A stretch of 64,000 bases of DNA, taken from contig NZ_JAJADR010000004.1 of the NCBI RefSeq assembly GCF_020447265.1, forward strand, positions 186,001 through 250,000. The letters are read 5' to 3'. The DNA is from Hymenobacter lucidus (lineage in GTDB: Bacteria; Bacteroidota; Bacteroidia; Cytophagales; Hymenobacteraceae). Position 1 is the first letter of the stretch. The number at the start of each line of letters is the position of its first letter. Position numbers and translations under genes: made by a program. The notes beneath the pieces were generated by a model that was not told where the DNA came from, did no database searches, and worked only from the letters and a program-made list of their open reading frames with translations. Positions 10,986 through 61,831 of this stretch are shown one piece after another.

Positions 10986-11023
10986 GAGAAATGTAGAGTG
11001 GGATAAATAGATCCAAAAGCAAA

Positions 11024-11066
11024 CAACATCAAAAAAGGCCACTTATTGTGGCCTTTTTTGATGTTG
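11024..11066. terminator. Terminator downstream of the RlpA gene
   Basis: Perfect 19-base arms (11024-11042 and 11048-11066) with a 5-base loop contain AAAAAAGGCCAC and its complement. The structure terminates the minus-strand rlpA transcript and would work in both directions. Confidence 0.85.
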
Positions 11067-11106
11067 CGAAGCATATAACAGGCCCTTTACGAGCCCGGAA
11101 GCTGCT

Positions 11107-11931
11107 TTATAAGTTTTCGGCCTGTCGTACCAGGCCGCTAATGCCCAGCTGCTTGAGGCGCAGCTGCACGGCTTCGGCTTCGGCCTTATCGGCGAAATTG
11201 CCCACGATTACACGTTTGAATGGCTTACCGCTCTGGCTGCTTTCGGCAATAGTTACCGTCAGCTTTTCGTCCAGGGCCTGAATCTTGGCCTGCACGCTCT
11301 CGGCATTGCGCGGGTCGCCGAAAGTACCGGCCTGCACCACGAAGCTCGGGGCCGGGGCCGGAATAACGACTACGTCGGCGGCTTCGGTTTCGCCGGCAAT
11401 GATGTCGGTCAGGGCCGTGCCGGCCAGTACGGTGGCGGCCGAGTCGGTGGCCAGGGCGGCCAGGTTATCGGGAGCGTCGGTGGGGCCGAGGGGCGTGGTG
11501 CTGGGTACTACTTCAGCCACTACCGATACGGCGCCGCGGCGCACGATATCAAGCGGGCGGGCCGCTACTTCCGACAAATCCAGAATGCGCTGGTGGCGGA
11601 ACGGGCCCCGGTCGGATACGCGCACTACTACCGATTTGCCATTGCTGGGGTTGGTGACGCGCAGCTTGGTGCCGAAGGGCAGGGTTTTGTGGGCGCAGGT
11701 ATACTTGAAGCGGTCAAACCGTTCGCCGTTGCTGGTCCGGTGCCCCTGATGCTCGCGGCCGTACCACGAAGCACGACCCCGCAGCACTACTGCGCGGGAA
11801 GCCGTGGCCGAGGCCGGTTTTTCTTCTTCGAAGCGCGTAGCGCGGGCTGCTTGCGGGAAAGACGTGAACAGTGCGAAAAGCAAGGTCAGAAGCAAGCCGG
11901 GAACAGGCAGTCGGGTCGGTATCAACTTCAT
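11107..11931 (-). CDS. rlpA: RlpA-like lytic transglycosylase with SPOR domain
   Basis: A 274-residue protein from the ATG at 11931 (an upstream in-frame start at 11982 would add 17 residues before the signal peptide). After a signal peptide comes a double-psi beta-barrel domain with GRASWYGREHQGHRTSNGE, the conserved Cys-Ala-His-Lys-Thr-Leu-Pro-Phe-Gly-Thr stretch and VVVRVSDRGPF, in which the Asp is catalytic in RlpA enzymes. A linker leads to a C-terminal SPOR domain (FVVQAGTFGDPRNAES to about the end) that binds denuded glycan at septa. It should cut naked glycan strands during cell separation. Length and domain order are normal for the family. Confidence 0.9.
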   Translation of the reverse strand: MKLIPTRLPVPGLLLTLLFALFTSFPQAARATRFEEEKPASATASRAVVLRGRASWYGREHQGHRTSNGERFDRFKYTCAHKTLPFGTKLRVTNPSNGKSVVVRVSDRGPFRHQRILDLSEVAARPLDIVRRGAVSVVAEVVPSTTPLGPTDAPDNLAALATDSAATVLAGTALTDIIAGETEAADVVVIPAPAPSFVVQAGTFGDPRNAESVQAKIQALDEKLTVTIAESSQSGKPFKRVIVGNFADKAEAEAVQLRLKQLGISGLVRQAENL

Positions 11932-12278
11932 GCGTTTGCTGGTTGGTAAGCAGAACAAATCTAGACGAGGATTCCAAACCACCTACCCGTTGCCAACTAC
12001 GTTAGTCAGCAGCAAGACTGAGAAATTGTCTTATTTATATAAAATTTGCATTTAATTAATCGATAGAGGAAAGCCGAAATAGCTGATTGTGTTTGTTTAA
12101 GACAGATTTTGTACTCTATATAGAGCTTGTGCGAACCATATTGGAAATAAGACTATGCGCCGGTTAAAAAATTTTGTCATTCGACGCCGGGCTATGTCTG
12201 GAGCTATGTTGCAAAAGTCCCGGAATTTTGCTAAGGCAGTAAGCCGTCCGGAGCGGTGGTTTTGCCGTACTTTGCCCT
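11932..12278. other. AT-rich divergent intergenic region
   Basis: About 350 bases between rlpA (minus) and the DUF72 gene (plus), clearly more AT-rich than its surroundings around 12020-12180. A minus-strand TAGATTTG (complement of 11956-11963) matches the -7 box TAnnTTTG and lies 25 bases upstream of rlpA, but no -33 TTG sits at the right distance. GTACTTTG just before the DUF72 start is another partial box. No ORF or RNA gene was recognised. Confidence 0.4.
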
Positions 12279-13193
12279 ATGGATTTTGGCCGACTCTCTG
12301 ACCTGCGCTACGTTGACTTTCGCCTGCCGCCCGACCACCCCGAAACGGCGGCGGTACTGGCCCGGGCCCAGGCTATTGGTACGCCCGCACCAGCTATATA
12401 TATAGGGTGCCCAATCTGGACCAACAAGGCCTGGTTGGGCTCATACTTTCCGGCCGGTATCAAGGATACCGATTACCTGCACCACTACGCCCGGCAGTTC
12501 AACAGCATTGAGCTGAACACGACCCACTACCGCATCCCCGACGCGCCCACCGTGCGCAAATGGCGCGACGCGGTGCCCGTCTCGTTCCGGTTTTGCCCCA
12601 AAATGCCCCAGATCATCAGCCACGACCGGCAGCTCTACAACGCCGATGAGCTGACTACCACCTTCTGCCGGTCTATCAGCGAGCTGGATGAGCGGTTGGG
12701 CATGGCTTTTTTGCAACTACCGCCCACGTTTGGCCCCGAGCATCTACCGCGTCTGGAGCGTTACCTGCTCGATTTTCCTGACTATGTACCGCTGGCCGTG
12801 GAGCTGCGCCACCCGGCCTGGTTTGCCGATAAAGGCCAGCGCGACGCAGTGTTTGCCATGCTCGAAGCCCTGGGCAAAACCCTGGTGCTGACCGACGTGG
12901 CCGGCCGCCGCGACGTGCTGCACCAGCGCCTGACCACGCCGGTGGCTTTTATCCGCTTCAACGGCCACGGCCTCGTGGGCAGTGACTACGCCCGCGCCAC
13001 AGCCTGGGCCGAGCGTATTGCAGGCTGGCTGCAGGCCGGCCTGCACACGGCCTACATCTTCATTCACCAGAAGGATATCATGCATTCCCCGGTCTGGACG
13101 CAGTTTTTCCTGGAAAAGCTGCGGGAGCTGACGGGCTTGGCCGTACCGCCGCCGCGCATTATTCCGCAGCCGGTGCAAGGCAGCCTGTTTTAA
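12279..13193 (+). CDS. DUF72 domain protein (YecE family)
   Basis: A 304-residue protein with the hallmarks of DUF72: IYIGCPIWTNKAWLGSYFP near the N terminus, the HYARQFNSIELNTTHYRIP strand-helix, FRFCPKMPQIISHDR, LGMAFLQLPPTFGPE, VPLAVELRHPAWF and the late IRFNGHG. The fold is a TIM barrel; the biochemical role of YecE-type proteins is not established. The ATG is immediately preceded by a promoter-like GTACTTTG. It is transcribed alone, with the metzincin gene starting 108 bases later on the same strand. Confidence 0.88.
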   Translation: MDFGRLSDLRYVDFRLPPDHPETAAVLARAQAIGTPAPAIYIGCPIWTNKAWLGSYFPAGIKDTDYLHHYARQFNSIELNTTHYRIPDAPTVRKWRDAVPVSFRFCPKMPQIISHDRQLYNADELTTTFCRSISELDERLGMAFLQLPPTFGPEHLPRLERYLLDFPDYVPLAVELRHPAWFADKGQRDAVFAMLEALGKTLVLTDVAGRRDVLHQRLTTPVAFIRFNGHGLVGSDYARATAWAERIAGWLQAGLHTAYIFIHQKDIMHSPVWTQFFLEKLRELTGLAVPPPRIIPQPVQGSLF

Positions 13194-13301
13194 GCATAGT
13201 GCGGCGAAAAATGGCTGCAATTACCCATCTGCCCCGCAAGCCAGACTACCTGAATTAACGTACCTTGGGCTTACGTCCATTCTGCCGCTTTTCTGCTGAC
13301 T

Positions 13302-15401
13302 ATGAAGCCTTGGGGTACTCTTTGCCGGTTAGGAACCGGCCTTTTTCTGCTTGCCGGCCTGTTGCCTACTTCCGGAATGGCCCAGAATGCGGAGCTGGTT
13401 GGGCACTGCCTGCTGGTGCCTTTGCCGGCCGCCGAGCGGGCCCGCCAAGCCGCACTGGTGGTAGAAGCAGAGGTGCTCGATGCCCGCGGCTTCTGGGATG
13501 CCAGCCACCGCCGCATCTACACGTCCCATCGCCTCCGGGTATATAGCGTGCTGAAAGGCCAGTTGCCTGCCGAGCTTACGATAATTACGGAAGGTGGACA
13601 GGTGGAGCTTGATGAGCAACGGCTAACCAACACGCTACGGCTGCAACCCGGCGACCAGGGTGTGTTTTTCCTGCGCCCTGCCGCTTTTGCTGGTACTCCC
13701 GCCGGGCCCGCCTGGACACCCTACGCCAGTGAGCAGGGCTTTATCCGCTACCAACTGGCCGATGCCTCGGCTGCCGAGCCTTTTCGGGCTTATCCTTTAG
13801 TTGGCCCCGACTTTTACGCTGAGCTGAGCGCCACGCTGGGCCAGGCGCGCCGCGAAGTGCAGCCCAACCCGGCGTTGCGGCAGGCCCAGCTGCGGCGTAC
13901 CCCCGTAGAAGCTGCCAAGGGTCAGGCGCCGGTTATCAGCTCCCTGGGGCCCACCACGCTGCCCGCCGGCATCGGCGCCGTTCTGACGCTCAGCGGCTCG
14001 GGCTTCGGCAGCACGCGGGGTACGGGCACCGTTGATTTTCGCAGCGCCGACGACGGCGGCGTGACCTTCACCCAAGCGCAAGCCACCGATTACGTAAGCT
14101 GGACAGATACGCAGATTCGGGTGCGAGTTCCTTCGTATGGCTCTACCGGCAACCCGGCGGGCACCGGCACGGTGCGGGTAACTACGGCCGCCGGCCTGCA
14201 AACTACCAGCAGTACGGCAGTGGTTATTCCCTACGCGGCTACCAACGTGCAGGCTCAGAATTCGTCGGCCATCGTGCGCCCCAATCATATCAACCAGAAT
14301 GGGGAAGGGGGCTACACCTTTCGGTTCGAAACAGCCTTTGCCACCAACCAGCCCGCCGCTGCCGCTTTCCAGCGCGCATTGCTCACCGGCTGGCGTTGCC
14401 AAACGGGTGTCAACTGGATTGTCGGGCCCAACCGGACCGCAGCGGGGGCTGGTTCCGATGGTGAAAACTCTGTGGGCTTCGACGTAGGGGCTCAGTTGCC
14501 GACGAATGTGCTAGGCCGCACTACCAGCTACTATCAGGGCTGTTTCAATCCCGATGGCACCATCAGCTTCCGCGTCGGTGAAATCGATATGCAGTTTGAC
14601 GACGGCGTGAACTGGCAGTATGGCCCGAGCCTACCCAGCGGGCAGCAGTACGATTTTGAGACGGTGGTGTTGCACGAGCTGGGCCACGCCCAGCAGCTGG
14701 GCCACGTCAATGCCAGTACGGCCGTGATGTACTACGGGGTGGCACGGGGCCGCTCCAACCGCACCCTAACCGTGAATGACCGTAGCGGCGGGCGACGGAT
14801 AGTGCGTACCCAAAGCTTTCCGGCCGCTGGCTGTGGTCCGGCCCCCATGCTGCCGGCCCCACTTACCAAGCTGGCTGCTTCCGGAAGTAGCGCCGGAACT
14901 GAAATTGCCTGGACCACGCGGGACGAATGCTTCCTCAGTAGCTTCGTGGTGGAGCGGGGTGCCGATACCACCGCCTGGCAACCAGTGGGCAGCGTGGCAG
15001 CCGGTGCGGCCGGTAATACCTACCGCTTAGTTGACCCCAGTCCGTTGGCGGGCCTGAGCTACTACCGCCTACGCCTGGTGCGCCCCGACGGCTCTGTTGA
15101 TAGCGCCGCTCCTCTGCTGGTGCAAGCGGCGGGAGGCAGCAGCGCAGTCCTGCAGATTTATCCAAACCCCGTGGACGGCAATCTGCTGCGGTTCCTGTTT
15201 TCCGGCACCACTGATGGTACCCTTTCGGTCTACGTCTACGATGCTGTGGGGCGGGTGTGCCAGCTGCACGGTATCGATTCTCGGGCGGGGCTCAACACGC
15301 GCAGCCTCGATATCAGCGACCTGCACCCTGGCTGGTACGTGCTGCGCTGGCGCGACCAGGCCGGCAAAACCGGCACGGCCCCCTTTATAAAAGTGAACTA
15401 G
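13302..15401 (+). CDS. Secreted metzincin-like metalloprotease with IPT and T9SS sorting domains
   Basis: A 699-residue secreted protein. The order is: signal peptide (to about residue 27), an N-terminal domain of unknown type, an IPT/TIG domain around 205-310 (ISSLGPTTLPAGIGAVLTLS), a protease domain, a fibronectin-like module and a type A T9SS C-terminal sorting domain (QIYPNPVDGN to the end). The zinc site is HELGHAQQLGH at residues 458-468, followed by a Met-turn-like STAVMYYG. The usual metzincin Gly at the eighth position of the motif is Gln, while the three His and the Glu are present. It should be exported by T9SS and attached to the surface or released. Confidence 0.85.
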   Translation: MKPWGTLCRLGTGLFLLAGLLPTSGMAQNAELVGHCLLVPLPAAERARQAALVVEAEVLDARGFWDASHRRIYTSHRLRVYSVLKGQLPAELTIITEGGQVELDEQRLTNTLRLQPGDQGVFFLRPAAFAGTPAGPAWTPYASEQGFIRYQLADASAAEPFRAYPLVGPDFYAELSATLGQARREVQPNPALRQAQLRRTPVEAAKGQAPVISSLGPTTLPAGIGAVLTLSGSGFGSTRGTGTVDFRSADDGGVTFTQAQATDYVSWTDTQIRVRVPSYGSTGNPAGTGTVRVTTAAGLQTTSSTAVVIPYAATNVQAQNSSAIVRPNHINQNGEGGYTFRFETAFATNQPAAAAFQRALLTGWRCQTGVNWIVGPNRTAAGAGSDGENSVGFDVGAQLPTNVLGRTTSYYQGCFNPDGTISFRVGEIDMQFDDGVNWQYGPSLPSGQQYDFETVVLHELGHAQQLGHVNASTAVMYYGVARGRSNRTLTVNDRSGGRRIVRTQSFPAAGCGPAPMLPAPLTKLAASGSSAGTEIAWTTRDECFLSSFVVERGADTTAWQPVGSVAAGAAGNTYRLVDPSPLAGLSYYRLRLVRPDGSVDSAAPLLVQAAGGSSAVLQIYPNPVDGNLLRFLFSGTTDGTLSVYVYDAVGRVCQLHGIDSRAGLNTRSLDISDLHPGWYVLRWRDQAGKTGTAPFIKVN

Positions 15402-49488: not shown

Positions 49489-50865
49489 ATGCATTTGACT
49501 AGTTCTTTCCGTCTGCTTCCGGCTGTGGCCCTTGGGCTGCTGCTCACCGGCTGCTACTCCCGTGATGATATCAAGGGCCAGGCCGGCACCGAAACCCCGG
49601 CGGAGGTGCCACCCACCGAAGTGCCCGGCGCGGTAGCGCCCAAGGAAACTGCGGCCCCGGCAGTTGCGGCCGATGCGGGGGCGGCTGGCCCGCTGCAGGC
49701 CATCAATGTATTTCTGGAAGTATCGGGTTCGATGGAAGGCTTCATGCCCAAAACCGGAGGCAGCGGCTCCAATACCCGCTTTCAGCAGCACGTAGCGCAA
49801 TTTTTGTCGGAAGTAAACCGCAGCAGCGCGGCCCGCAAAACCTTCTTCCGCATCAAGGAGAAACCCTACCGCGACTCCTACCAGCAACTCTCCCAAACCG
49901 TGCGCGGCGGGATTCAGCAGCCGGCCAGCAGCACCGACATCCCCACGGTGCTCGATACGCTGGTGAGCGGCTACTACGCGCCCAACACGGTAAACGTGTT
50001 GATTTCGGACTTCATCTACTCGCCGAAAAACGCCGGGGCCATTCCCTACATCAGCACCGACATTACCGATGCCCTCAACCGCGCCCAGCGCCCGGATCTG
50101 GCCGTGTCGGTGTACGGCTACGCCTCAGATTTTCGCGGGGCCTACTATCCGGCGCTGAAAACGGCTGTCAGGAAAATCAACAGCTGCTGCGACACCGATA
50201 TTCCCTACTACTTCTGGGTTATTGGGCCGGCCGATGCCGTGCGGCGCTTTGACGCCGCGCTGCTGGAAAAGCAGCCCGCCCAGCAAGTCCACTTCGGAGT
50301 GAAATATCCGGTGCCGGCTTCGTCGCTGCTGAGCCGCTTCCAGAATGTGGGCTCCTGGTACTACGGTGAAAAAGACGCGAGCAAGCGGGCCGCCGGCGCT
50401 TCCTACCACACCGTGGCCGTGAGCAGCGTATCGGCCAAAGGGCCGGTGGAGTTTGTGGTGGGCCTGGATCTGAAAACCCTGCCCGGCCTGTACCGGGATG
50501 TTAAGTATCTAAAGCCCAACTTGCAGCTGCAGGCTCAGGACACCGACGCGAAGATTATCGACGTGTTTGCCGCCAACGACCAGACAAAAAACAGCAGCGG
50601 GGCCGAAAATCAGTACACGCATTTCGTGAAAGTGCGCGTTACCAAGCTCGGCAAGGCAGCCCGGCCGCTCCAACTGGTGCTGAAAAACCAGCGCCCGGCC
50701 TGGATCAGCCAATGGACCACCAAAAACGACAGCAACATCAATCAGGCCGGGGCCAAGACGTTTGCCCTGAGCAGCCTGCTCGACGGGGTAGAGGCCGTAA
50801 CGGCTACGGATCAGGAGAAAGCGCCGGTTTTCACCATTCCGCTCACCCTGCAGCCCGCCGACTAA
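49489..50865 (+). CDS. VWA-like lipoprotein, first gene of the cytoskeletal/motor cluster
   Basis: A 458-residue lipoprotein (lipobox LLTGC, Cys22) with a Pro/Ala/Glu-rich linker to about residue 68. The next strand, INVFLEVSGSMEGF, resembles the DxSxS metal-binding motif of von Willebrand A domains, but the first acidic residue is Glu (Glu77-Val-Ser-Gly-Ser81). A later strand, VNVLISDFIYS (Asp174), would carry the third metal ligand. The rest (to 458) is a second, strand-rich region ending in VFTIPLTLQP. It should face the periplasm or surface and bind a protein partner. A 106-base gap with a duplicated 28-base sequence separates it from the small membrane protein gene. Confidence 0.78.
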   Translation: MHLTSSFRLLPAVALGLLLTGCYSRDDIKGQAGTETPAEVPPTEVPGAVAPKETAAPAVAADAGAAGPLQAINVFLEVSGSMEGFMPKTGGSGSNTRFQQHVAQFLSEVNRSSAARKTFFRIKEKPYRDSYQQLSQTVRGGIQQPASSTDIPTVLDTLVSGYYAPNTVNVLISDFIYSPKNAGAIPYISTDITDALNRAQRPDLAVSVYGYASDFRGAYYPALKTAVRKINSCCDTDIPYYFWVIGPADAVRRFDAALLEKQPAQQVHFGVKYPVPASSLLSRFQNVGSWYYGEKDASKRAAGASYHTVAVSSVSAKGPVEFVVGLDLKTLPGLYRDVKYLKPNLQLQAQDTDAKIIDVFAANDQTKNSSGAENQYTHFVKVRVTKLGKAARPLQLVLKNQRPAWISQWTTKNDSNINQAGAKTFALSSLLDGVEAVTATDQEKAPVFTIPLTLQPAD

Positions 50866-50971: not shown

Positions 50972-51364
50972 ATGAAAGGTTTCTTCCGCTTTCTGTACGA
51001 ACTCATCGGCACGCCCCAGCCACCTTCCGAAACGCCCGTGTACCGGGAGGTAATTTTCCCCAACGTGGGTTTGCTCACCATCGGCCTGTCGTTGGCAATG
51101 GTCCTGATTTTCTACTACCTCATCAACAAGGCCATGGGCGTGGCCACCTTTAATAAGGTGCGCCACTGGGTTATTTTTCTGATAATCAACGCCCTGTTGG
51201 CTTTCATTATCGGCATCTGGCAAACCAGCTCCCAGGAAGTAGCCTCGCACTCCTACGTGTACTGGATGTCGACCTGGAACGCTATTCTGGGCCTGTTCTG
51301 GTTTTTCCTGTTCTCTGTGCTGCTCAAGCGTGGCTCGACCAACGCCAGCACGACTCCTTTTTAG
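50972..51364 (+). CDS. Small three-helix membrane protein of the cluster
   Basis: A 130-residue protein with membrane helices at about 32-52, 65-85 and 99-118. A short amphipathic N terminus (GFFRFLYELIGTP) precedes them and the C terminus is polar (KRGSTNASTTPF). The first loop has PVYREVIFPNVG. No family is known to me. Its place between the VWA-like lipoprotein and the tubulin-like gene suggests it is a membrane anchor for the system, but that is inference. Confidence 0.7.
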   Translation: MKGFFRFLYELIGTPQPPSETPVYREVIFPNVGLLTIGLSLAMVLIFYYLINKAMGVATFNKVRHWVIFLIINALLAFIIGIWQTSSQEVASHSYVYWMSTWNAILGLFWFFLFSVLLKRGSTNASTTPF

Positions 51365-51561: not shown

Positions 51562-53010
51562 ATGGCTAAACTGTTCATTTTCGGCATTGGCGGCACCGGC
51601 TCCCGCGTGATTCGGTCCTTGACCATGCTGCTGGCCTCGGGCGTGAAGCTCGCCAACTGCGACCGGGTGGTGCCCATCATCATCGACCCCGACGCCCACA
51701 ACGGCGACATGAACCGCACGGTGGACATGCTCAAAAGCTACCAGCAGATCTACCAGCACCTCGGCCCCCGCGAAGACGGTTTCTTCCAGACGGATATGAG
51801 TACGCTCAGCAGCATCTCGGCCGATACCAACGGTGGCGTCAAAGACACCTTCGTGTTCGACTTCGGCGGCATCAATCAAAGCTTCCGCCAGTATCTGAGC
51901 TACGACCAGCTGTCGGTGGATTCCAAAGGCCTCGTCGAGCTGCTTTTCACCCAGGACAACCTGGAAAGCCCGCTCACCATCGGTTTCCGGGGCTCGCCCA
52001 ACGTGGGAAGCATCGTGTTGAACAAAGTAGTGGAGTCGCCGGAAATCCGGTTTTTCGCCGACAACTTCCAGGCTGGCGACCGGGTATTCTTTATCTCCAG
52101 CATCTTCGGCGGCACCGGCGCGGCCGGCTTCCCGCTGCTGCTCAAAAACTTGAAGGACCCCAACACCCGTCTCAGCAACGCCGGCTACCTGCGCAACGCC
52201 CTGACCGGCGCCGTGACGGTAATGCCCTACTTCGCGCTGCAATCGGAGGATAATTCGGTTATCGACTCCAACTCGTTTCTGACCAAAACCAAGGCCGCCC
52301 TCAGCTACTACGAGCACAACCTGCAGGGCCTCGACGCGCTGTATTACCTGGCCGACACGCCTGACACGCCCTACGAAAACCAGCCTGGCGGCACGGCCCA
52401 GCGCAACAAAGCCCACCTTATCGAGCTGCTGGCGGCCCTGAGCGTGGTCGACTTCATGCAGTACTCCGACGCCGAGCTGCGCAACGGCGCGCCCCACTTC
52501 CACGAGTACGGCCTCGGCACCGACACCCAGGATCTGAACTTCAGCCACCTGCCCGACGAAAGCCGGGAGCTGATTGCCAAGCACCTGACCCAGCTGCTCT
52601 ACTTCTCGCGCTACCACAAGCAGCACCTGCCCACCGACAAGGCGCCTTACCACGACAATCTGAACCTGACCCACGCCCTGCGCAACGAGCCCATCTTCAA
52701 GGAGCTCAACAACTTCCTGCACAGCCCCGAGTACGGCGTTGACGAGTGGCTCAAGGAGCTCAGCCAGAACCGCCGCTCCTTCCGCCCCTTCGATCTGACC
52801 ACCGACGACTTCAACGCCATGATTGCGGGCAAGCCGGTGGAAAAGAAGTGGAACGACTTCTTCAACAAGGGCCTCAGTCAGAACTACTTCCTCAACCAGC
52901 TCAACGACGCCGCCAAGTCCATCCACGAGCCCGACAGCTTCCGCAAGCTCGTCGCCCTCTTCGACCAGGTGACCGACAAGGCCTTCGAGGAAAAGGTGAA
53001 AGTGGTGTAA
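51562..53010 (+). CDS. Tubulin/FtsZ-like GTPase of the cluster
   Basis: A 482-residue protein. The N terminus MAKLFIFGIGGTGSRVIRSL has the glycine-rich first loop of the tubulin fold, and VVPIIIDPDAHN (about 37-47) follows as the next strand. The tubulin signature appears as FISSIFGGTGAAGFP (FGGTGAAG at 182-189), a variant of GGGTG(S/T)G. Later strands (AVTVMPYFALQ) fit the core. The C-terminal 200 residues are mostly helical. This places it with the bacterial tubulin-like proteins that are not FtsZ; it lacks the long FtsZ C-terminal tail. It should bind GTP and may polymerise. The actin/Hsp70-like gene follows. Confidence 0.82.
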   Translation: MAKLFIFGIGGTGSRVIRSLTMLLASGVKLANCDRVVPIIIDPDAHNGDMNRTVDMLKSYQQIYQHLGPREDGFFQTDMSTLSSISADTNGGVKDTFVFDFGGINQSFRQYLSYDQLSVDSKGLVELLFTQDNLESPLTIGFRGSPNVGSIVLNKVVESPEIRFFADNFQAGDRVFFISSIFGGTGAAGFPLLLKNLKDPNTRLSNAGYLRNALTGAVTVMPYFALQSEDNSVIDSNSFLTKTKAALSYYEHNLQGLDALYYLADTPDTPYENQPGGTAQRNKAHLIELLAALSVVDFMQYSDAELRNGAPHFHEYGLGTDTQDLNFSHLPDESRELIAKHLTQLLYFSRYHKQHLPTDKAPYHDNLNLTHALRNEPIFKELNNFLHSPEYGVDEWLKELSQNRRSFRPFDLTTDDFNAMIAGKPVEKKWNDFFNKGLSQNYFLNQLNDAAKSIHEPDSFRKLVALFDQVTDKAFEEKVKVV

Positions 53011-53147: not shown

Positions 53148-56100
53148 ATGCCCAAAGTTCTTCGTCTTCATAACAACGGTTCCCAGCAGGTGCAGGGCTG
53201 GCAGAAAACTGCTCCCATCACCAGCACCGAAATCAATACCGTAACCGACCCCACGGGCGGGCGGGCTAAGAACGTGGCGGTCAGCATCCCGACGCCCTTT
53301 GCGCGGATGCACCTCTTTGAAACGGCCTTCGACTTCCTGGCTCGGGAAGGACAGCGCAACCCCGGCTCGGTGTACCATGAGCTGGTGTCGCACTTCTGGG
53401 ATTTGTTTGAAATCCTCTACAACTATAACCTCTACACCCAGGCCGGCCGCAAAATCACGCTGCGCCGCTGGAACGTGGAGTCGGAGCTGCGCAAGATGCA
53501 GTCGGACGAAGGCACCCGCCTGCTGGGCGAAACCCTACGTTTGTTTTTGCAGGACGACCGGTTTCGCGACTTCTCGGACATGTACCTCGTCTTCTACGAG
53601 TCGCCAAACCTGCCCGGCGGGCCCCAGCTGCTCGGCGGCACCTCGCCCTTGACGATGCTGTTCACGGCCCCCGCGGTGCGTCAGCTCGACTTGGAGCGCG
53701 CCCAGGCCCGCGGCCACTACTTCGACAACCAGGTCGTGCTGCTCGAAGACCGTTCGCCGGCCTTCCGGGAGTTTGTCTACGAGCTGTTCCTGGCCTACCC
53801 GCAGCTGCAGCGCCGCGACTTTGCCGGCAGCGTGTTTGCCGGTCTGGACCGCAACCTCATCAACCAGATGCAGATGCGGGGCGACCACACGGCCCAGCAG
53901 TTTGCCACCAAGTACCCCGCCATTGCCGACTTCCAGGGCAACTTGGCCAGCGTAAAGCACGTGCCCCTGCCCAGCCGCGCCGACCAGTCGGCCGTGACCA
54001 GCTCGGACCTGTTTATTGCGCCGACGCGGCAGACCAACCAGAGTCGGCCTACGCCGCTGGTGCTGCGCCCCAACCTGACCATGCAGGGCGCCAACTACCT
54101 CAACGGCCAGCCCTGGGACGACCGTACGCCGGTGCCCTACGCCGACGAGTTGACTTTGGAAAACCGCGTGCTGCCCGGCAAAGGCTTCAAGTATCCGTAC
54201 CTGACCGTCGGCGACTTCCTGGAAGATGCCCTGGTGGAGCTGCCCTACGAGCTGAACGCCCAGCGCTTTCACACCGGCAAGGTCACGTTCCAGTACGGGG
54301 CTGATACGCAAGGCCGGGCGCGGTTTCCGTACCTGCTGCCCTTGCGCCAGACCTTCTTCGAGTACTTCTCCGACCACGACTTGGCCGAGCTGCTCACCTT
54401 CACCATCGATTTGAACCACGTGCGCATCGCGCTGCGGATTCCGGTGCAGGGCGGCCGCTTTATCACCTTCGAGCGGAGCTACTACCAGAACCCCCAGAAC
54501 CCCAAGGATGCGCAGGGCCGGGAGATTCCCGAGAAGGGCCGCATTGTGAAGGCCAATATCGGAATGGGCGTGTTCCCATTCTACAAGATGCGCGCCCAGC
54601 CCGAGTACAACGACTTCTACAAGGTCATGCTCGTGGATGCCGACAACTCGCCCACTATGCTGCAGCGCCGCTACGACCTCACCTTCTTCGTGAACGGGGA
54701 GCGGCTCACCGACCAGGGCGCGGCCAAAAAAGCCACTAAGTTTGAGCGCACCCAGAAAAGCGTGTCGACGGCCGGCAGCACCTACTACGAAATCACCGGC
54801 ACCCACTTCGACCTCGCCGAGCTGACCTGCCCGCCCGCTTTCCACGGCGCACCCCCGGCCCGGGGCCTCATCGTGCCGCGCTGGCGGGAGCTGGACCGCG
54901 GCACTCGCCGCTTCACCTTCGCCGTCGACTTCGGTACCAGCAACACCCACGTGGCCTACGCCGACGGCCCTTCCGCTCACCCGCGCCCGTTCACCATCGG
55001 CGAAAACGACCTGCAGATGGAGCTGCTTAATGCCCCGCTGCCCGACACCGGCTACTCGGCCTACCAGCGCTACATGCGCGGCCCCGGCCAGCTGTTCGAC
55101 ATTCCGCTGATTCAGAACCGCGAATTCGTGCCCAGCATCATCGGCGAAGCCGGCTCGGTGTATGAATTCCCGATTCGGACGGCCGTGTGCGAAACGAACT
55201 CCTACGCCAACGAGCCGAGCAAAGTGCTCAGCAACATCAACATCGGCTTCAGCATCAACACCGAAACCGGGCAGCCGCCCCAGAACCGCTTCGTGACCAA
55301 CCTGAAGTGGAGCGCTGAGCTGGACCCCCAGGGCGTAAACCGCATTGCGGCCTTCTTCAAGGAAATTCTGCTGCTGATGAAGCACAAGGCGGCCATGCAG
55401 GGTGGCATTCTGGAAGACACCCGCGTGGTGTGGTTTGCCCCGCTGAGCTTCGATATGTTCCTGCGCAACCAGTTCCAGCAGGTCTGGGACGAGGCCTTCC
55501 AGCAGATTTTCCGGGCCCGCCGCCCCACCCAGTGCATTTCGGAGTCGGTGGCGCCGTATTACTACCTCACGGCCACGAACCAGGTGGTGCCCAACCGCGA
55601 CGAAAACGTCATCAACATCGACATCGGCGGCGGTACCACCGACCTGCTGATTTTCGCCGAGCAGAAGCCCGCCTTCAGCTCGTCGTTCCGCTTTGCCGGC
55701 GACGACCTGTGGGGCGACGGCTACGCCCGGGTGCAGGGCGCGCCCAAGCAGAACGGCCTGCTTCGCCTCGGCGTGCAGTACGTGGAAAGCCTGCCTGATT
55801 CGGAGGAAAACCAGGAGTACAAGGGCTACCTGCGCGCCGCGCTGCAAAACCCCGACTTCGGCTCGGCCGACGTGACCAGCCTGCTGTTTACGTACAACGA
55901 CGCGCTGCGCTTCACCCAGAGCCTCGGCCTGGGCAAGGGGCGGCAGCTACGGGTGCTGTTCTACCTCCACTACACGGCCATCGTCTACCACGTGGCCCAG
56001 CTTGTGCAGCACCTCGGCCTCAAGCCCCCGCGCTACCTCTGCTTCTCGGGTAAGGGCAGCTTGTACCTACGCCTGCTCAGCGGCGGAGCCAGCATGGCGG

Positions 56101-56618
56101 CCATTGAAAAGATCAGCAAAGCCGTATTCAAGGCTGCTACGGGCCAGGAAGCGCCCCAGAACTTCCGCGTAATTCTGGCCGACAACCCCAAGGAAGCCAC
56201 CACCAACGGCGGCGTATTGTTCGAGGAAAGCGCCACCAGCGCCGCCGACTTCGACCAGATCCGGACCGTGAAGCTCAACGGCGCCACCGAAGGCCAGGAC
56301 ATCGACACAGCCCGCCTGAAAATGCCCCAGGTGGATGCCGACCTTAAGCAGAGCGTTATCGACAACACCCGGCGCTTCCTGGAAATCGTGCTCGACAACG
56401 ACGATGTGGCCCCGCTTATGCGCGAAGTCGGCGTGGACGTGGACCGCACCCGCATCAAGGAAATGCTGCTGCGCGAAATCGAGGACAGCCTCAACCTGGG
56501 TCTGCACCAGATTGGCCGCAACCTGGGTCAGGGCGAAACCCTACCCGAAACGCTGTTCTTTTACCCGCTCAAGCAGGCTCTCTACAACCTGAGCCGGGAG
56601 CTGATGACGAACGGGTAG
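53148..56618 (+). CDS. Large protein with C-terminal actin/Hsp70-like ATPase domain
   Basis: A 1156-residue protein, the largest of the cluster. Residues 1-585 form an N-terminal region with no family I recognise; it has several beta-rich stretches and aromatic residues. From about 588 an actin/Hsp70-like ATPase domain starts: phosphate-1 motif FAVDFGTSNTHVAYADG (residues 591-607), phosphate-2 motif INIDIGGGTTDLLIF (822-836) and an adenosine-type motif LCFSGKGSLYLRLL (about 964-977). A helical C-terminal tail ends near 1156. The architecture recalls SrfB-type virulence factors, but I cannot confirm that relationship. There is no signal peptide, so it should act in the cytoplasm near the membrane. 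Confidence 0.8.
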   Translation: MPKVLRLHNNGSQQVQGWQKTAPITSTEINTVTDPTGGRAKNVAVSIPTPFARMHLFETAFDFLAREGQRNPGSVYHELVSHFWDLFEILYNYNLYTQAGRKITLRRWNVESELRKMQSDEGTRLLGETLRLFLQDDRFRDFSDMYLVFYESPNLPGGPQLLGGTSPLTMLFTAPAVRQLDLERAQARGHYFDNQVVLLEDRSPAFREFVYELFLAYPQLQRRDFAGSVFAGLDRNLINQMQMRGDHTAQQFATKYPAIADFQGNLASVKHVPLPSRADQSAVTSSDLFIAPTRQTNQSRPTPLVLRPNLTMQGANYLNGQPWDDRTPVPYADELTLENRVLPGKGFKYPYLTVGDFLEDALVELPYELNAQRFHTGKVTFQYGADTQGRARFPYLLPLRQTFFEYFSDHDLAELLTFTIDLNHVRIALRIPVQGGRFITFERSYYQNPQNPKDAQGREIPEKGRIVKANIGMGVFPFYKMRAQPEYNDFYKVMLVDADNSPTMLQRRYDLTFFVNGERLTDQGAAKKATKFERTQKSVSTAGSTYYEITGTHFDLAELTCPPAFHGAPPARGLIVPRWRELDRGTRRFTFAVDFGTSNTHVAYADGPSAHPRPFTIGENDLQMELLNAPLPDTGYSAYQRYMRGPGQLFDIPLIQNREFVPSIIGEAGSVYEFPIRTAVCETNSYANEPSKVLSNINIGFSINTETGQPPQNRFVTNLKWSAELDPQGVNRIAAFFKEILLLMKHKAAMQGGILEDTRVVWFAPLSFDMFLRNQFQQVWDEAFQQIFRARRPTQCISESVAPYYYLTATNQVVPNRDENVINIDIGGGTTDLLIFAEQKPAFSSSFRFAGDDLWGDGYARVQGAPKQNGLLRLGVQYVESLPDSEENQEYKGYLRAALQNPDFGSADVTSLLFTYNDALRFTQSLGLGKGRQLRVLFYLHYTAIVYHVAQLVQHLGLKPPRYLCFSGKGSLYLRLLSGGASMAAIEKISKAVFKAATGQEAPQNFRVILADNPKEATTNGGVLFEESATSAADFDQIRTVKLNGATEGQDIDTARLKMPQVDADLKQSVIDNTRRFLEIVLDNDDVAPLMREVGVDVDRTRIKEMLLREIEDSLNLGLHQIGRNLGQGETLPETLFFYPLKQALYNLSRELMTNG

Positions 56619-56751: not shown

Positions 56752-56799
56752 AGCCGCAGTAAACAACGGCAACCAGCGTCCTTGTCTCTTGCTCGCTTT

Positions 56800-57234
56800 A
56801 TGACTCTTTCCCGTTGCGGACTTATTGTGCTCACCAGCCTGCTGCCTTTAAATTCCTGCTTTTGGGGTGCAGACCGGAGCGAGAAAAATATAGCCGGTAA
56901 TTACTGGCTTCGGGCTGATGACGACGCCAATGACTATCACCTGTATTATGACAACCAGGGTGAGTTCGGGTCTTCTTTGATTCAAAGCAGAGTAGCGGCT
57001 GCTGGTTACAACGAGCGGGTTGTCATTATTAAGTCATGCGCTGGGTACTACATCATTCCGCTGAAAAGCATCCAACATGATGAAATGGAAACGGGCATAT
57101 ACAACAACGTCCAGGGAGATATCCGACGGAAAATGCTGGGCCCATTTACCAGAGCAACCTTCAATAAAAACCTGGCAGCAATAGAAGAAGATTCGCTTGT
57201 GACTTTCAATCAACTACTAGCTGACTGCCAATAG
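56800..57234 (+). CDS. Small lipoprotein in the cluster
   Basis: A 144-residue protein from the ATG at 56800 (an earlier TTG at 56782 is less likely). A lipobox-like NSC follows a hydrophobic start. The mature part has YWLRADDDANDYHLYYDNQGEFG, GYNERVVIIKSCAGYYIIPLKSIQ and NVQGDIRRKMLGPFT. It resembles DUF3997-like proteins in the pattern of a short strand-rich domain, but the match is uncertain. It appears less GC-rich than its neighbours and lies between two repeat-containing gaps, so it may be a later insertion rather than a core component. The next gene starts 13 bases downstream. Confidence 0.65.
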   Translation: MTLSRCGLIVLTSLLPLNSCFWGADRSEKNIAGNYWLRADDDANDYHLYYDNQGEFGSSLIQSRVAAAGYNERVVIIKSCAGYYIIPLKSIQHDEMETGIYNNVQGDIRRKMLGPFTRATFNKNLAAIEEDSLVTFNQLLADCQ

Positions 57235-57246
57235 CCGCGCCACTGC

Positions 57247-58830
57247 ATGCCGACATTCCTGCCCATGAATCGTTTCCTTCTTTCCTGCGCCTTGCTGCTT
57301 GCCGGGCTGTTGTCTTCGACGGCTACGCACGCCCAAACGCCCCTCGGCCAACCCACGCTCGATGAGCAGAAGGTGCAGATCTGGTGCGCTACGGTGCGCT
57401 ACGTGTACGACGACAACAACCGCCCCAATCTAAAAAGCGGCCTGAACTGCGACGGGACGTTGTCGGAGTTTGTGAGCAGCATCAAGGCCGACAGCCAGAA
57501 GGTGTATAGCATGCTGTATCAGCCGCTCGAAGGCAAAGGCACGATGTACAAGGGGCTGGGCTCTGATGCTTCGCGGTTGCAAAAGCTAACCACGGAAATC
57601 ATCAACAAGCTGCAGGCGTCGCCGGCGCGCAAGGCCGATGCCGCCCGCATGGCTAAGCTCAACACGCTGAAAAGCCAACTGGCTACCTACCTGAGTAATG
57701 GCACGCCACCCGCCGACCTGAACAACGACGTAACCGCCGGTCAAGAAGAAACAGAAGACACCTCAGTAGCTGATGAAGCTGCATTGGCCGCTACTGATGC
57801 GGGTGTGGGCCAAGGCGCAGCGGAAGCAACTACCACCGCACCCCGTGCTGCCAGCAGTGAAAGCCTGATGAGCAAGTTTTTCGCCCCGCTAGCCCTCATC
57901 CTGTCTCTGCTGAGCATCTTTCTCTACGTGATGCTGCGCAGCAGCCTAGGCAAGTTTCAGAAGGAACTCAGCAGCCGTATCGACAAGCGCCGGGAGGAAA
58001 TAGCCTCCTTGCAAAGCAGTCCGGCTACCGGCACAGCCTCCGGAGCCGCCTTGCGCCTGACGCCGGAGCTGCAGCGTGACATTGAGAAGCTGGTGCAGCA
58101 GCGCGTGGCCGAGGAGCTAAGCAAGCGGCAGGGTAGCGGGCAGCCGCAAAGTCAGAGCCAGGGTAAGCAGCCGCAACAGCAGCAGCGCAATCAGAGCAAT
58201 CAACAGCAAAGCAATCCACCGCGGCAGGCTCCGCCAGTAGCAGTTCCCACTCCGCAACCTCAGTCCCCGCCGGTAGCTCAGGCCCCGGCACCCGTGCCGC
58301 CAGTGGTGCGTCCCGTAGCCGCCCCGGTTTCGCTGCAGGAAGCCGCTCCACTGCCGCCAGTAGTACCAGCTGGCCCGCCTGCCAGCACACCCCGCGACGA
58401 ATTCGACAGCCTGATTCCGCCGGTGCAGCTGCCCGCCACCGATTGGTCGGCCGCTACGGCTGAGGTGCCGCCCGTGCCTCAGCCGGCAGTACCACAGCCT
58501 GCCGCGCCCCAGCCGATGCGTTATTATGTGAAAGTACCCGTCAACGGCGGGTTCAGCGACTACGACTTGCAGGACCAGCCCCAGCACGACAGCATCTACG
58601 AAATAACGCCTGACCCGCGCGTGCCCGAGCGGGCCACGTTCCGGGTGACTTCCAACGTGGGGGTGCACGCCTATGCCATCCAGAGCGCCCAGTATTCGTT
58701 GCGTGAAGCCTGCGCTTACCAGCAGCCTAGCGGCCCCGTTTCCCGCATCGTGACGGATAAGGACGGTACGCTGATTAAGAGCAACGGCGCCTGGCAGATC
58801 GAGCAGAAGGCGGCTATTCACTTTGAGTAG
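57247..58830 (+). CDS. Bitopic protein with coiled coil and Gln/Pro-rich linker
   Basis: A 527-residue protein; a second ATG at 57265 would skip six residues. After a signal peptide (to about residue 29) lies a periplasmic domain with two Cys (47, 68). A membrane helix follows at about 211-231, then a short coiled coil (232-292) and a Gln/Pro-rich linker (about 295-425). A small C-terminal domain (424-527, with RYYVKVPVNGGFSDYDL, RATFRVTSNVGVHAYAIQSAQYSLREAC and WQIEQKAAIHFE) ends the protein. No family is recognised. It is suited to link periplasmic and cytoplasmic parts of the complex, like TonB or a linker protein, with the C-terminal domain inside the cell. Confidence 0.72.
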   Translation: MPTFLPMNRFLLSCALLLAGLLSSTATHAQTPLGQPTLDEQKVQIWCATVRYVYDDNNRPNLKSGLNCDGTLSEFVSSIKADSQKVYSMLYQPLEGKGTMYKGLGSDASRLQKLTTEIINKLQASPARKADAARMAKLNTLKSQLATYLSNGTPPADLNNDVTAGQEETEDTSVADEAALAATDAGVGQGAAEATTTAPRAASSESLMSKFFAPLALILSLLSIFLYVMLRSSLGKFQKELSSRIDKRREEIASLQSSPATGTASGAALRLTPELQRDIEKLVQQRVAEELSKRQGSGQPQSQSQGKQPQQQQRNQSNQQQSNPPRQAPPVAVPTPQPQSPPVAQAPAPVPPVVRPVAAPVSLQEAAPLPPVVPAGPPASTPRDEFDSLIPPVQLPATDWSAATAEVPPVPQPAVPQPAAPQPMRYYVKVPVNGGFSDYDLQDQPQHDSIYEITPDPRVPERATFRVTSNVGVHAYAIQSAQYSLREACAYQQPSGPVSRIVTDKDGTLIKSNGAWQIEQKAAIHFE

Positions 58831-58850
58831 AATCAACCCCCATTATAGAG

Positions 58851-58945
58851 CGTCATGCTGAACTTGCCGAGGCATCTATCCCGCAATGCCAGTTGATGGT
58901 AATGCAATGAAGTAGTAGAGATACTTCGGCAAGCTCAGCATGACG
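58851..58945. repeat. Inverted repeat before the MotA/TolQ-like gene
   Basis: Arms at 58851-58877 and 58919-58945 match at about 24 of 27 positions (CGTCATGCTGAACTTGCCGA and complement). The ends resemble those at 7255-7415 and 56640-56751, so these are members of one dispersed family. Confidence 0.7.
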
Positions 58946-59019
58946 TGCTTTTTTGCATCTTCACTCCCAGGTCAGCGTATTTGCGCTGACCTTTGTGCTT
59001 CGTTCCCGTTTGAAGTTTC

Positions 59020-60477
59020 ATGCTCGAAATAATTCTCGAAGTCGTTGTCGTTGCCATTGTAGTCGGTCTGCAGATTCGTGCCTTTCTCCAGACCCGCGCC
59101 CAGGCTCTGCGGCTCAGCCAACTGTATCCGGCCCGCGACGCGCTGCGCGTGGAGCGCCGCCTCGTAACGCCCGCCGGCATCGACCTGCCCGACTATGCCG
59201 CCGACGCGCCGGAGGGCTCCTTTCTGGTCGATATCATCAAAGCCGATACCGTATCGGAGGGTTTCCGCGAAATCATCGACGACACCAACGGCTACCTGCG
59301 CTATAACAAGGGCGCGGCCGACTTCAGCATTCTGAAAGACATTTCGGAGCGGCAAAGCCAGGTGATGGAAAACGCGGTGCAGGCCAACGTGGCCACTCCG
59401 CTCTATCTGGGCTTGCTCGGTACGTTTCTGGGCGTTATTCTGGGCCTCGTGGGCATTGCCCGCAACGGCGTGTCGGACGATGAGGCCCTGACGCCCTTCC
59501 TGACTGGCGTACTCATTGCCATGACCGGCTCCTTCGTAGGCTTGCTGCTCACGCTGCTCGGCAACGGCCTCGTGCGCAACGCCCACCAGAAGCTCGACCA
59601 GGCCCAGAACAACTACTACACCTTTTTGCAGGCCCGCCTGCTGCCGATTCTGCACTCGGATATGGCCGGCAGCCTGTCGAACCTGAAAGCCGTGCTGGAT
59701 GCTTTCAACCAGGATTTCGTCAGCAAGGTCACCATCTTTGAGCCCGTCATCGGCACGCTCACCGAAAACGTGAAAGTGCAGCGTGACTTCCTGATGCGCC
59801 TCAACGAAATCGGGTTCGATAAGATGGCCAACGCCAACGTGGCCGTGTTTGAGAAGGTGAGTCAGTCGGCCGAGATGTTCCAGCAGTTTATCGGCTACCA
59901 GCAGCGGCTCAATGAGATGTTAGAGGATGGCACCGCCACCGCCCAGGCCGTGAGCAGCATCCTGGATCGGCTCGTGGGCTTCGAGCGGGGCATCAACAAC
60001 GTGGGCCAGTATATTGGCCAGCACGACAACCTGGTGCAGGCCCAGCTCGACTTTTTCCAGCGCCACCAGAAGGAAATGAGCAACGTGGCGGCCCGCACCG
60101 AGCAGTATTTCGACGAAGCCACCGGCCGCCTCACCGATTTGATGCAGCAGCGCCTGAGCTTCCACGAGCGGGATGCTCAGCAGGCCTACGAAAAGTGGAG
60201 CCAGCACTTCCAGGAGCTCAACAAGGATAACGTTTTCGACCGAATCCGCCAGTATCTGGAGCCCTTCAAGAACCTCAACGCCCAGCAGGACGTGCTCAGC
60301 CGCGACGTAACGGCCACCCAGCGCGAGCTGCTGCGCAAAATCGAGCTGGACTCCCAGATTCAGGCCAAGCTGCTTTCCGAACTAGCCAACCTGAACACGG
60401 TGCTGGTGAAGGCCACGTCCAAGAACCGGTTTCAGCGGTTTATGGACAGCTTGTTTGGCGGCGTGAAGCCGCAGTAA
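59020..60477 (+). CDS. MotA/TolQ/ExbB-like channel subunit with long helical tail
   Basis: A 485-residue protein. It has an N-terminal membrane helix (about 1-22), a cytoplasmic stretch, then two helices typical of the MotA/TolQ/ExbB family: VATPLYLGLLGTFLGVILGLVGI (about 124-146) and LTGVLIAMTGSFVGLLLTLL (161-180). The PLYLGLLGTFLG motif with its conserved Pro marks the ion-conducting pore. The remaining ~300 residues are almost purely helical and coiled-coil-like, far longer than TolQ or ExbB and similar in layout to ZorA of Zorya systems. With the MotB-like partner encoded downstream it should form a 5:2-type stator that converts ion flow into rotation or force. Confidence 0.88.
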   Translation: MLEIILEVVVVAIVVGLQIRAFLQTRAQALRLSQLYPARDALRVERRLVTPAGIDLPDYAADAPEGSFLVDIIKADTVSEGFREIIDDTNGYLRYNKGAADFSILKDISERQSQVMENAVQANVATPLYLGLLGTFLGVILGLVGIARNGVSDDEALTPFLTGVLIAMTGSFVGLLLTLLGNGLVRNAHQKLDQAQNNYYTFLQARLLPILHSDMAGSLSNLKAVLDAFNQDFVSKVTIFEPVIGTLTENVKVQRDFLMRLNEIGFDKMANANVAVFEKVSQSAEMFQQFIGYQQRLNEMLEDGTATAQAVSSILDRLVGFERGINNVGQYIGQHDNLVQAQLDFFQRHQKEMSNVAARTEQYFDEATGRLTDLMQQRLSFHERDAQQAYEKWSQHFQELNKDNVFDRIRQYLEPFKNLNAQQDVLSRDVTATQRELLRKIELDSQIQAKLLSELANLNTVLVKATSKNRFQRFMDSLFGGVKPQ

Positions 60478-60564
60478 AGTAGCGCGAACTTTGTAGTTCG
60501 CGCTCCAGAACTATCACCAGAACGATTATCGTTCATTTACGCGAACTACACAGTTCGCGCTACT
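60478..60564. repeat. Inverted repeat between the two motor genes
   Basis: 25-base arms (60478-60502 and 60540-60564) match at 24 of 25 positions and start immediately after the stop codon of the channel gene. Each arm also contains GCGAACT/AGTTCGC as an internal palindrome. The downstream ATG lies 6 bases after the right arm. Confidence 0.85.
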
Positions 60565-60570
60565 GACATC

Positions 60571-61257
60571 ATGAACGACCCGCAAAACCGCTCTTCCAAC
60601 GACTTTTTCTGGCCCAGCTACGTGGACCTGATGACGTCGCTCTTCGTGGTGATGCTGGTCTTGTTCGTCTACAGCTTCAAGCTGTTCAAAGACCGGGAGC
60701 ACGAGCTCAAGCAGGCCAACGGAGAGCTGAAGGCCAAGGCCGAGGAGCTGGAGCAGATTACCAAGATCCGCAACTCACTCAAGCGCCTCGAAGGCCGCTA
60801 CTTCAAGTACGACCCGGCGCTGGAGCGGCATGAGCTGCTGGTGCCGGTGCAGTTCAAGGCCGGCCGCGACGAAATTCAGGACGCCTACAAACCGGCCTTG
60901 CTACAGGCGGGCCGTACGCTGCGCTCGGTGCTCAAAACCATCAAAACCGAGCAGCCGGTGCGCTACCTCGTCATTGTGGAAGGCATGGCCGCCCGCTACG
61001 CCGGCAACGACGCCCGCAACCGCGCCGAGGAGCAGCTCACCTACCAGCTCAGCTACCGCCGGGCCCTAAACCTGCTCAACTTCTGGAAGCAGAACGGCCT
61101 CGACTTCAGCCAGGACAGCGGCGTAGAGCTCATTATCGGCGGCAGCGGCTTCTTCGGTACCGGCCGCTACCGGGGCGCCCAGGAAGGCCAGAACAAGCGC
61201 TTCCTGATTCAGGTGATTCCTAAGATCGGGCGGATAACCAGTAGCACGGGGCGGTAA
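60571..61257 (+). CDS. MotB/OmpA-like peptidoglycan-anchored partner subunit
   Basis: A 228-residue protein. The N-terminal segment FFWPSYVDLMTSLFVVMLVLFV (residues 12-33) is a single membrane helix with Asp19 near its start, the ion-coupling residue expected for MotB, ExbD and TolR. A coiled coil (about 40-75) leads to an OmpA-like domain (about 90-218) with VPVQFKAGRDEIQ, VIVEGMAAR, SYRRALNLLNFW and NKRFLIQVIP. The usual OmpA Asp-Gly-x-x-x-Asn pattern is altered. It should anchor the stator to the cell wall. Together with the MotA-like protein this is the clearest functional pair of the cluster. Confidence 0.88.
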   Translation: MNDPQNRSSNDFFWPSYVDLMTSLFVVMLVLFVYSFKLFKDREHELKQANGELKAKAEELEQITKIRNSLKRLEGRYFKYDPALERHELLVPVQFKAGRDEIQDAYKPALLQAGRTLRSVLKTIKTEQPVRYLVIVEGMAARYAGNDARNRAEEQLTYQLSYRRALNLLNFWKQNGLDFSQDSGVELIIGGSGFFGTGRYRGAQEGQNKRFLIQVIPKIGRITSSTGR

Positions 61258-61264
61258 ACTAGTC

Positions 61265-61831
61265 ATGCATTTCAGAACCCGCATATGCCAGGCAGTAGCT
61301 CACTTGGAGAGGATAGCTGCTATGCCAGCAGAGCAGGAATGGGCAATGCTGGTAGAATTACAGCACTGTGCAGCTACGGAAATACAGAGCCTGATTGACC
61401 ACCACAGCACGAATGCACTTCGAGACTACGTCGGGATTCACCTTTTTATTGAAGCGCAAGTGGATGAGCTGCCGGTTTCGGCCTACTCATTAGCCGAGTT
61501 CAGGCGTCGAATCAATTACTTGGCCTTGGTTTGGAATGCCAGCAAAGACCTGCCACCGTTTGCCGGACGGGATTTGCGCCCGTTTCTGGAAACCGTAAAC
61601 GATACCTTGTATCAATTGGTCGTTTACACCACGGGCTGGTCGGAGGAAATTCAGCTTCAACCCCGGGAGGCTTGGTATTCAGAGCCGGATGCCATGATTA
61701 TTATCTGTGGCGTAGGGCGGTGCTGGGACCTGAGCGGCGAGGAATATTCTGGCAATGCCAGCTTACGGCCCGCTACCAAGTCGGAGCTTGTTGCCCATAA
61801 TATCTACAACTATCATCAGGACCTGGAATAG
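61265..61831 (+). CDS. Protein of unknown function at the end of the cluster
   Basis: A 188-residue protein that starts 7 bases after the OmpA-like gene, which suggests a shared transcript. It has no signal peptide or membrane helix. Features include QVDELPVSAYSLAEFRRRINYLALVWNASKDLPPFAGRDLRPFL and a strand-rich end (DAMIIICGVGRCWDLSGEEYSG). It is not recognised and may be part of the system or a later addition. A terminator at 61883-61910 closes the cluster. Confidence 0.68.
   Translation: MHFRTRICQAVAHLERIAAMPAEQEWAMLVELQHCAATEIQSLIDHHSTNALRDYVGIHLFIEAQVDELPVSAYSLAEFRRRINYLALVWNASKDLPPFAGRDLRPFLETVNDTLYQLVVYTTGWSEEIQLQPREAWYSEPDAMIIICGVGRCWDLSGEEYSGNASLRPATKSELVAHNIYNYHQDLE

Follow-up and report, generated by a model that had tools for sequence, protein, structure and literature searches.

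The window, a stretch of 64,000 nucleotides of Hymenobacter lucidus DNA, contains a row of nine genes on the forward strand in which a putative ion-driven motor pair stands beside cytoskeleton-like proteins. The row, referred to below as the cassette, opens with a vWA-like lipoprotein of 458 aa (49489-50865), predicted to be extracytoplasmic, followed by a small membrane protein of 130 aa with about three transmembrane (TM) helices (50972-51364), which has homologues in other cassettes. The third gene encodes a tubulin/FtsZ-like GTPase of 482 aa (51562-53010), identified by Pfam and by its motifs, and the fourth an actin/HSP70-fold ATPase of 1156 aa (53148-56618), characterized from an AF2 model, Foldseek, VIA-align and profile comparison. 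After a lipoprotein-like ORF of 150 aa (56782-57234) come a signal-peptide/TM protein of 527 aa (57247-58830), with a homologue in almost every cassette, and the two motor genes, whose ORFs were confirmed at 59020-60477 and 60571-61257: a ZorA-like channel subunit of 485 aa, recognized by its fold, pore residues and tail, and a ZorB-like subunit of 228 aa, recognized by PADLOC, PDB profile matches and Asp19. A 188-aa ORF (61265-61831) closes the row. The conserved order comprises the vWA-like lipoprotein, the small TM protein, the tubulin-like GTPase, the actin-fold protein, the signal-peptide/TM protein and the motor pair, which forms the 3' module. The 150-aa and 188-aa ORFs were rejected as core parts because both are sporadic among Hymenobacter loci, the former being present in few of them and a homologue of the latter lying between zorA and zorB in H. 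metallicola.

The genes are under purifying selection, with dN/dS values of 0.03-0.34 (0.07-0.34 for zorA/zorB, against three relatives). A search for a Bacteroidota -33/-7 promoter within the row found none. Two features lie in the spacer before the channel gene (58850-58992): a long inverted repeat (GTCATGCTGA...TCAGCATGAC), and a hairpin of 10 bp (58969-58992) that was considered as a conserved regulator and rejected, being present in close relatives only. A conserved prolyl oligopeptidase gene flanks the row, no defence genes are recognisable next to it, and none of the row's genes was annotated by family models as a nuclease, a helicase or another recognisable effector. At one locus, L013, motor and prolyl oligopeptidase are separated by genes for a PepSY-like protein and a TonB-dependent receptor (10693-14525), and a spacer of similar size stands between the two in about half of the Hymenobacter loci.

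The channel subunit is a 3-TM protein of the MotA/TolQ/ExbB fold with both pore threonines and a heptad-patterned helical tail. Its three hydrophobic segments (near residues 1-20, 130 and 164) and the helices of the AF2 model (2-33, 126-149 and 154-238) bear out the three membrane helices described in the initial annotation. The model, with pLDDT values of 65-87 over residues 1-210, places three short strands (42-49, 55-57 and 68-75) between TM1 and TM2 and the pore at TM2/TM3; an extra beta-sheet is a peculiarity of Zorya-type subunits in a structural survey (PMC12505986). Residues 1-220 correspond to the ExbB/TolQ/ZorA fold by Foldseek and VIA-align, and all 29 relatives compared share Thr135, Thr178 and the PLYLGL pore motif, while matches to family models are weak (Pfam MotA_ExbB, E=2.9e-4; PADLOC ZorA2, E=2.2e-5, 21 bits). 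The tail starts at about residue 190, spans about 290 residues and shows a heptad periodicity of 3.52 residues, with a power of 10.9 against 7.6 at the 95th percentile of shuffles. The helical tail of about 300 residues claimed initially is thus upheld as to helicity; a bundle is not confirmed by the low-confidence AF2 monomer, in which the tail is predicted helical at a pLDDT of 33-50.

The partner subunit carries in its TM helix Asp19, a residue that all 13 family and reference sequences share, and has an OmpA-like periplasmic domain that Pfam recognizes weakly (E=0.014). The HTD residues of the peptidoglycan pocket are replaced by MAA or MAS in the partner family (EGMAA...QLSYRRA in the window), and the LSxxRA motif with its arginine and a C-terminal arginine are retained, in agreement with the altered domain noted initially. 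In type I ZorB, peptidoglycan is bound by H186, D188, R203 and R254, and mutation of the histidine abolishes both peptidoglycan binding and defence (PMC11890865). The changed pocket need not mean that the partner has lost peptidoglycan binding, because type II ZorB already has a serine where type I has the pocket aspartate. The partner matches PADLOC ZorB1 at E=6.5e-13, and the two significant matches in a PDB profile search are both ZorB (8vvn, 1.4e-5; 8qyd, 4.5e-4).

Like ZorA-ZorB of Zorya types I and II, the pair combines a channel subunit of three TM segments, which has strands between the first two and a long helical tail, with a TM-aspartate partner bearing an OmpA-like domain; ZorA and ZorB are the best profile matches for the respective subunits. 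By pairwise profile comparison, the channel subunit appears nearer ZorA (98.3% over 296 columns, including the tail, a value that coiled coils may inflate) than ExbB/TolQ (89.2% over 49 columns), and the partner appears nearer ZorB (97.8% over 181 columns) than MotB (61%) or ExbD/TolR (0.6% probability by hhalign). The top VIA-align matches of the channel subunit, to ZorA, have 18-22% identity against 7-10% for ExbB/TolQ, although the Z scores of 12.1 and 11.3 give no separation. The Zorya-like layout proposed at the outset therefore agrees with both architecture and profile comparison.

Membership of Zorya itself was rejected on family scores, the pore tree and the absence of effector genes. 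The channel subunit scores 19.7 bits against a cut-off of 700 for NCBIfam ZorA2, and the partner 25.5 bits against 400 for ZorB1. True Bacteroidota Zorya loci used as PADLOC controls reach 113-125 bits for ZorA, five to six times the 21 bits of the channel subunit, contain ZorC and ZorD, and give 1085-1335 bits for ZorD. None of the nine genes matches ZorC, ZorD or ZorE, and matches to ZorD elsewhere in the genome are confined to the generic SNF2 helicase region, with no full-length copy, which agrees with the initial reading. In the pore tree (116-118 columns, with long branches), ZorA (100/100) and ExbB/TolQ (100/100) form separate blocks with the window family between them, and the window pore groups with stand-alone pairs (98/95), its closest relatives outside cassettes; the clustering with ordinary ExbB or TolQ proteins that was named initially as a refutation did not appear. 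The motor pair is thus ZorA/ZorB by architecture, not by descent: its pore represents a third lineage, separate from the ZorA clade. The earlier idea of a redeployed ZorA/ZorB was not borne out. The ExbB-ExbD and TolQ-TolR systems share with it the pore fold, three TM segments and pore threonines, but the window family has an OmpA-like partner, not of the ExbD/TolR fold, a long tail and a separate pore group; on the separate 100/100 grouping and the partner type, membership was rejected. From a MotAB flagellar stator the pair differs in that the channel subunit has three TM segments rather than the four of a MotA-type subunit. A single clade of cassette ZorA-like pores was rejected (AU p=0.005), because stand-alone pairs nest among them, whereas one group of cassette, stand-alone and defence-island pores was not rejected (p=0.35).

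Among the other cassette proteins, the vWA-like lipoprotein has a lipobox-type Cys22 and a MIDAS-like E77-x-S79-x-S81 with D174, invariant in a 10-sequence alignment. Its assignment rests on this motif and on gene position, because Pfam finds no vWA match in the 458-aa protein; the gene opens the row in Hymenobacter, Chitinophaga and other Bacteroidota. The tubulin-like GTPase contains the T1 loop GIGGTGSR and the signature loop IFGGTGAAGFP, and matches Pfam Tubulin at E=1.8e-4 and Tubulin_2 at E=0.006; the GGTGAAG loop and the N-terminal GIGGTG are invariant in most of 14 tubulin-like sequences from Bacteroidota and Cyanobacteria. FtsZ is its best-scoring PDB family, with a weak match (E=0.017), and a search for phage relatives found none. 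The actin fold of the 1156-aa protein is weak by sequence (profile match to MreB at E=0.0017) and firm by model: the AF2 structure, with a pLDDT of 77.7, matches MreB at E=1.6e-9 in Foldseek and at a VIA-align Z of 11.9 over residues 587-1036, and the motifs DFGTSNTH, DIGGGTTD and FSGxGS fall within 586-1036. Residues 1-585 (window 53148-54900) are mostly strand-rich and lie outside the fold matches. The 527-aa protein has a signal peptide, one TM segment near 207-230, a Pro/Gln-rich region and a conserved C-terminal domain of about 100 aa. It is the fastest-diverging member, with 48-66% identity within Hymenobacter, where identity declines from the tubulin-like and actin-fold proteins to this one.

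The same row is present in nearly all retrieved Hymenobacter loci whose contigs extend far enough upstream (L012, L026 and L034 lie at contig ends and are incomplete there), in two Chitinophaga with overlapping or nearly adjoining genes, and, by tubulin searches and family-model annotation, in at least five further genera, so that the tubulin-like and actin-like genes are standing neighbours of the motor. Of 61 Hymenobacter genomes, 59 have the motor, always as a single copy. Outside this genus the distribution is patchy, with the tubulin gene in 22 of 395 genomes of the class and a full-length motor subunit in 10 of 395; beyond Bacteroidota, the distribution is drawn from plasmid records only. 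In all 10 genomes with a full-length motor subunit, belonging to 6 genera, the locus also includes the tubulin gene (hypergeometric p about 3e-14 by genome and 1.7e-7 by genus), a count biased upward by a ZorA search profile built from cassette members, which nevertheless recovered stand-alone pairs. A degraded cassette apparently occurs at L064, with no recognisable actin gene and the tubulin in two frames, in an assembly with 13% contamination.

The 3' module is exchangeable: it is the motor in twelve cassettes and a WG-repeat or related TM protein in five, the two never occurring together, and the tubulin and actin trees each require at least two switches between them. The protein in the motor's place contains a WG repeat at L061 (12605-14017), L065 (12551-13849) and L154 (11975-13555), and is a related TM protein at L066 (11210-12511) and L160 (11160-12203, a weak match). 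WG-type cassettes are examples of the cassette without the motor, and the stand-alone pairs and a pair in a defence-like island are examples of the motor without the cassette. The motor genes might be mere neighbours, an independent envelope energiser placed beside the cassette by chance, in keeping with motor-free cassettes and with stand-alone pairs being the closest non-cassette relatives of the window pore. Such an accident is very improbable, however, given the same position in at least seven genera, the 10/10 co-occurrence, the mutually exclusive swap with another module at that position, and the divergent cassette L068, in which the A and B subunits sit at opposite ends and flank the whole row. 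The stand-alone pairs themselves (L189-L196) have an extra hydrophobic C-terminal (TM) segment at the tail end, and several genomes of one family contain two or more copies. The relative at L188 (9045-12224, G587) has two tandem ZorB-like genes and lies near a DpdF-like helicase, a DarT-like fusion and an apparent reverse transcriptase, a possible undescribed defence system.

Flagellar rotation, gliding, the Type 9, Ton and Tol systems and Zorya are all known to be powered by ion-driven 5:2 motors. The open-access literature searched yielded no earlier description of a tubulin-linked ZorAB-like motor, nor of a 5:2 motor linked with tubulin-like and actin-like proteins. The gene association described above suggests an undescribed machine that would link an ion-driven motor to cytoskeleton-like proteins. 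We tentatively favour, at a little under an even chance, a stator driven by ions, with a tail that either works on a tubulin/actin complex attached to the envelope or is gated by that complex, and probably with a constitutive envelope function.

The nearest published contexts, neither of which describes a stator in the parts consulted, are the FtsZl1 operons (PMC2875224) and the GTPase-tubulin-HSP70-vWA systems (PMC7159879). FtsZl1 operons, predicted to function in membrane remodelling, combine an FtsZ-like GTPase with membrane proteins, an OmpA-type protein and a vWA protein (Makarova and Koonin 2010, PMC2875224), a gene context parallel to that of the cassette with its vWA-like lipoprotein. 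The cassette might by analogy be a remodelling or cell-shape machine in which the stator energises envelope deformation, vesicle formation or division placement, as the constitutive distribution within Hymenobacter and the MreB-like fold of the actin-fold ATPase would allow. We consider this quite unlikely as a separate explanation: it overlaps the favoured reading and differs mainly by naming the output, and the window tubulin scores 16.3 bits against the Tubulin_2 (PF13809) cut-off of 27 and, at 482 aa, lacks the long coiled coil of FtsZl1, a true member of which has 1215 aa. The window row also differs from these operons by its actin-fold protein and stator and by the absence of a P-loop GTPase among the genes found.

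Tubulin, HSP70/actin-fold and vWA proteins recur together in the predicted conflict systems centred on GAP1-N2 GTPases (Kaur et al. 2020, PMC7159879), but their tubulin versions are from Firmicutes and Actinobacteria and no motor is described; among the nine window genes, Pfam detects no TRAFAC GTPase, and an FNIII protein was also not found. This recurrence, the resemblance of both subunits to ZorA/ZorB in architecture and profile, the defence-like island at L188, where a relative of the pair accompanies a DpdF-like helicase and a DarT-like protein, the patchiness outside Hymenobacter and a related tubulin/actin core on cyanobacterial plasmids would fit a Zorya-like anti-phage or conflict system, in which the motor senses the envelope disturbance at phage entry and the tubulin/actin/vWA complex responds. 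Defence of this kind is somewhat unlikely: in contrast to a typical defence system, the motor is a near-fixed, single-copy component of the genus core, the row lacks effectors, and its neighbours are housekeeping genes such as the prolyl oligopeptidase. Since the motor is near-universal in Hymenobacter, a constitutive envelope or cell-organisation function is more likely than facultative phage defence.

In the favoured stator model, the two motor genes would encode the membrane motor within an envelope system of several genes, a 5:2 stator with a pentameric channel around a dimeric axle, in which Asp19 of the axle would bind a proton or sodium as ions flow past it. The vWA-like lipoprotein outside the cytoplasm and the OmpA-like domain of the axle may report on the envelope or hold the motor to it. 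From the channel subunit, a long coiled-coil tail would extend into the cytoplasm and either act on the tubulin-like GTPase and the actin-fold ATPase, joined in a complex, or be gated by them. The 527-aa signal-peptide/TM protein would be a likely adaptor; the motor could drive filaments, or filaments could gate the motor. The more specific proposal that the tail of an ion-driven rotary stator works mechanically on paired bacterial tubulin and actin, as an exchangeable module, which would be the first known direct link between an ion gradient and the prokaryotic cytoskeleton, is unlikely. Because Hymenobacter is culturable and the row is genus-wide and single-copy, the link between motor and cytoskeleton is testable by gene deletion and imaging, and the exchangeable 3' module, together with the stand-alone relatives, offers a third lineage for studying the origin of ZorA-type tails.

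Tubulin/actin cassettes also extend beyond those with motor or WG-type modules. Related cassettes at L073, L074 and L076, on cyanobacterial plasmids, lack the motor, and most of their genes are annotated as hypothetical or unknown. In divergent cassettes the motor is replaced by TerD proteins at L163 (by Pfam), a protein kinase at L164 and a TPR/GYF protein at L165, and TerD-like N-termini are discernible by eye in the divergent cassette at L069.
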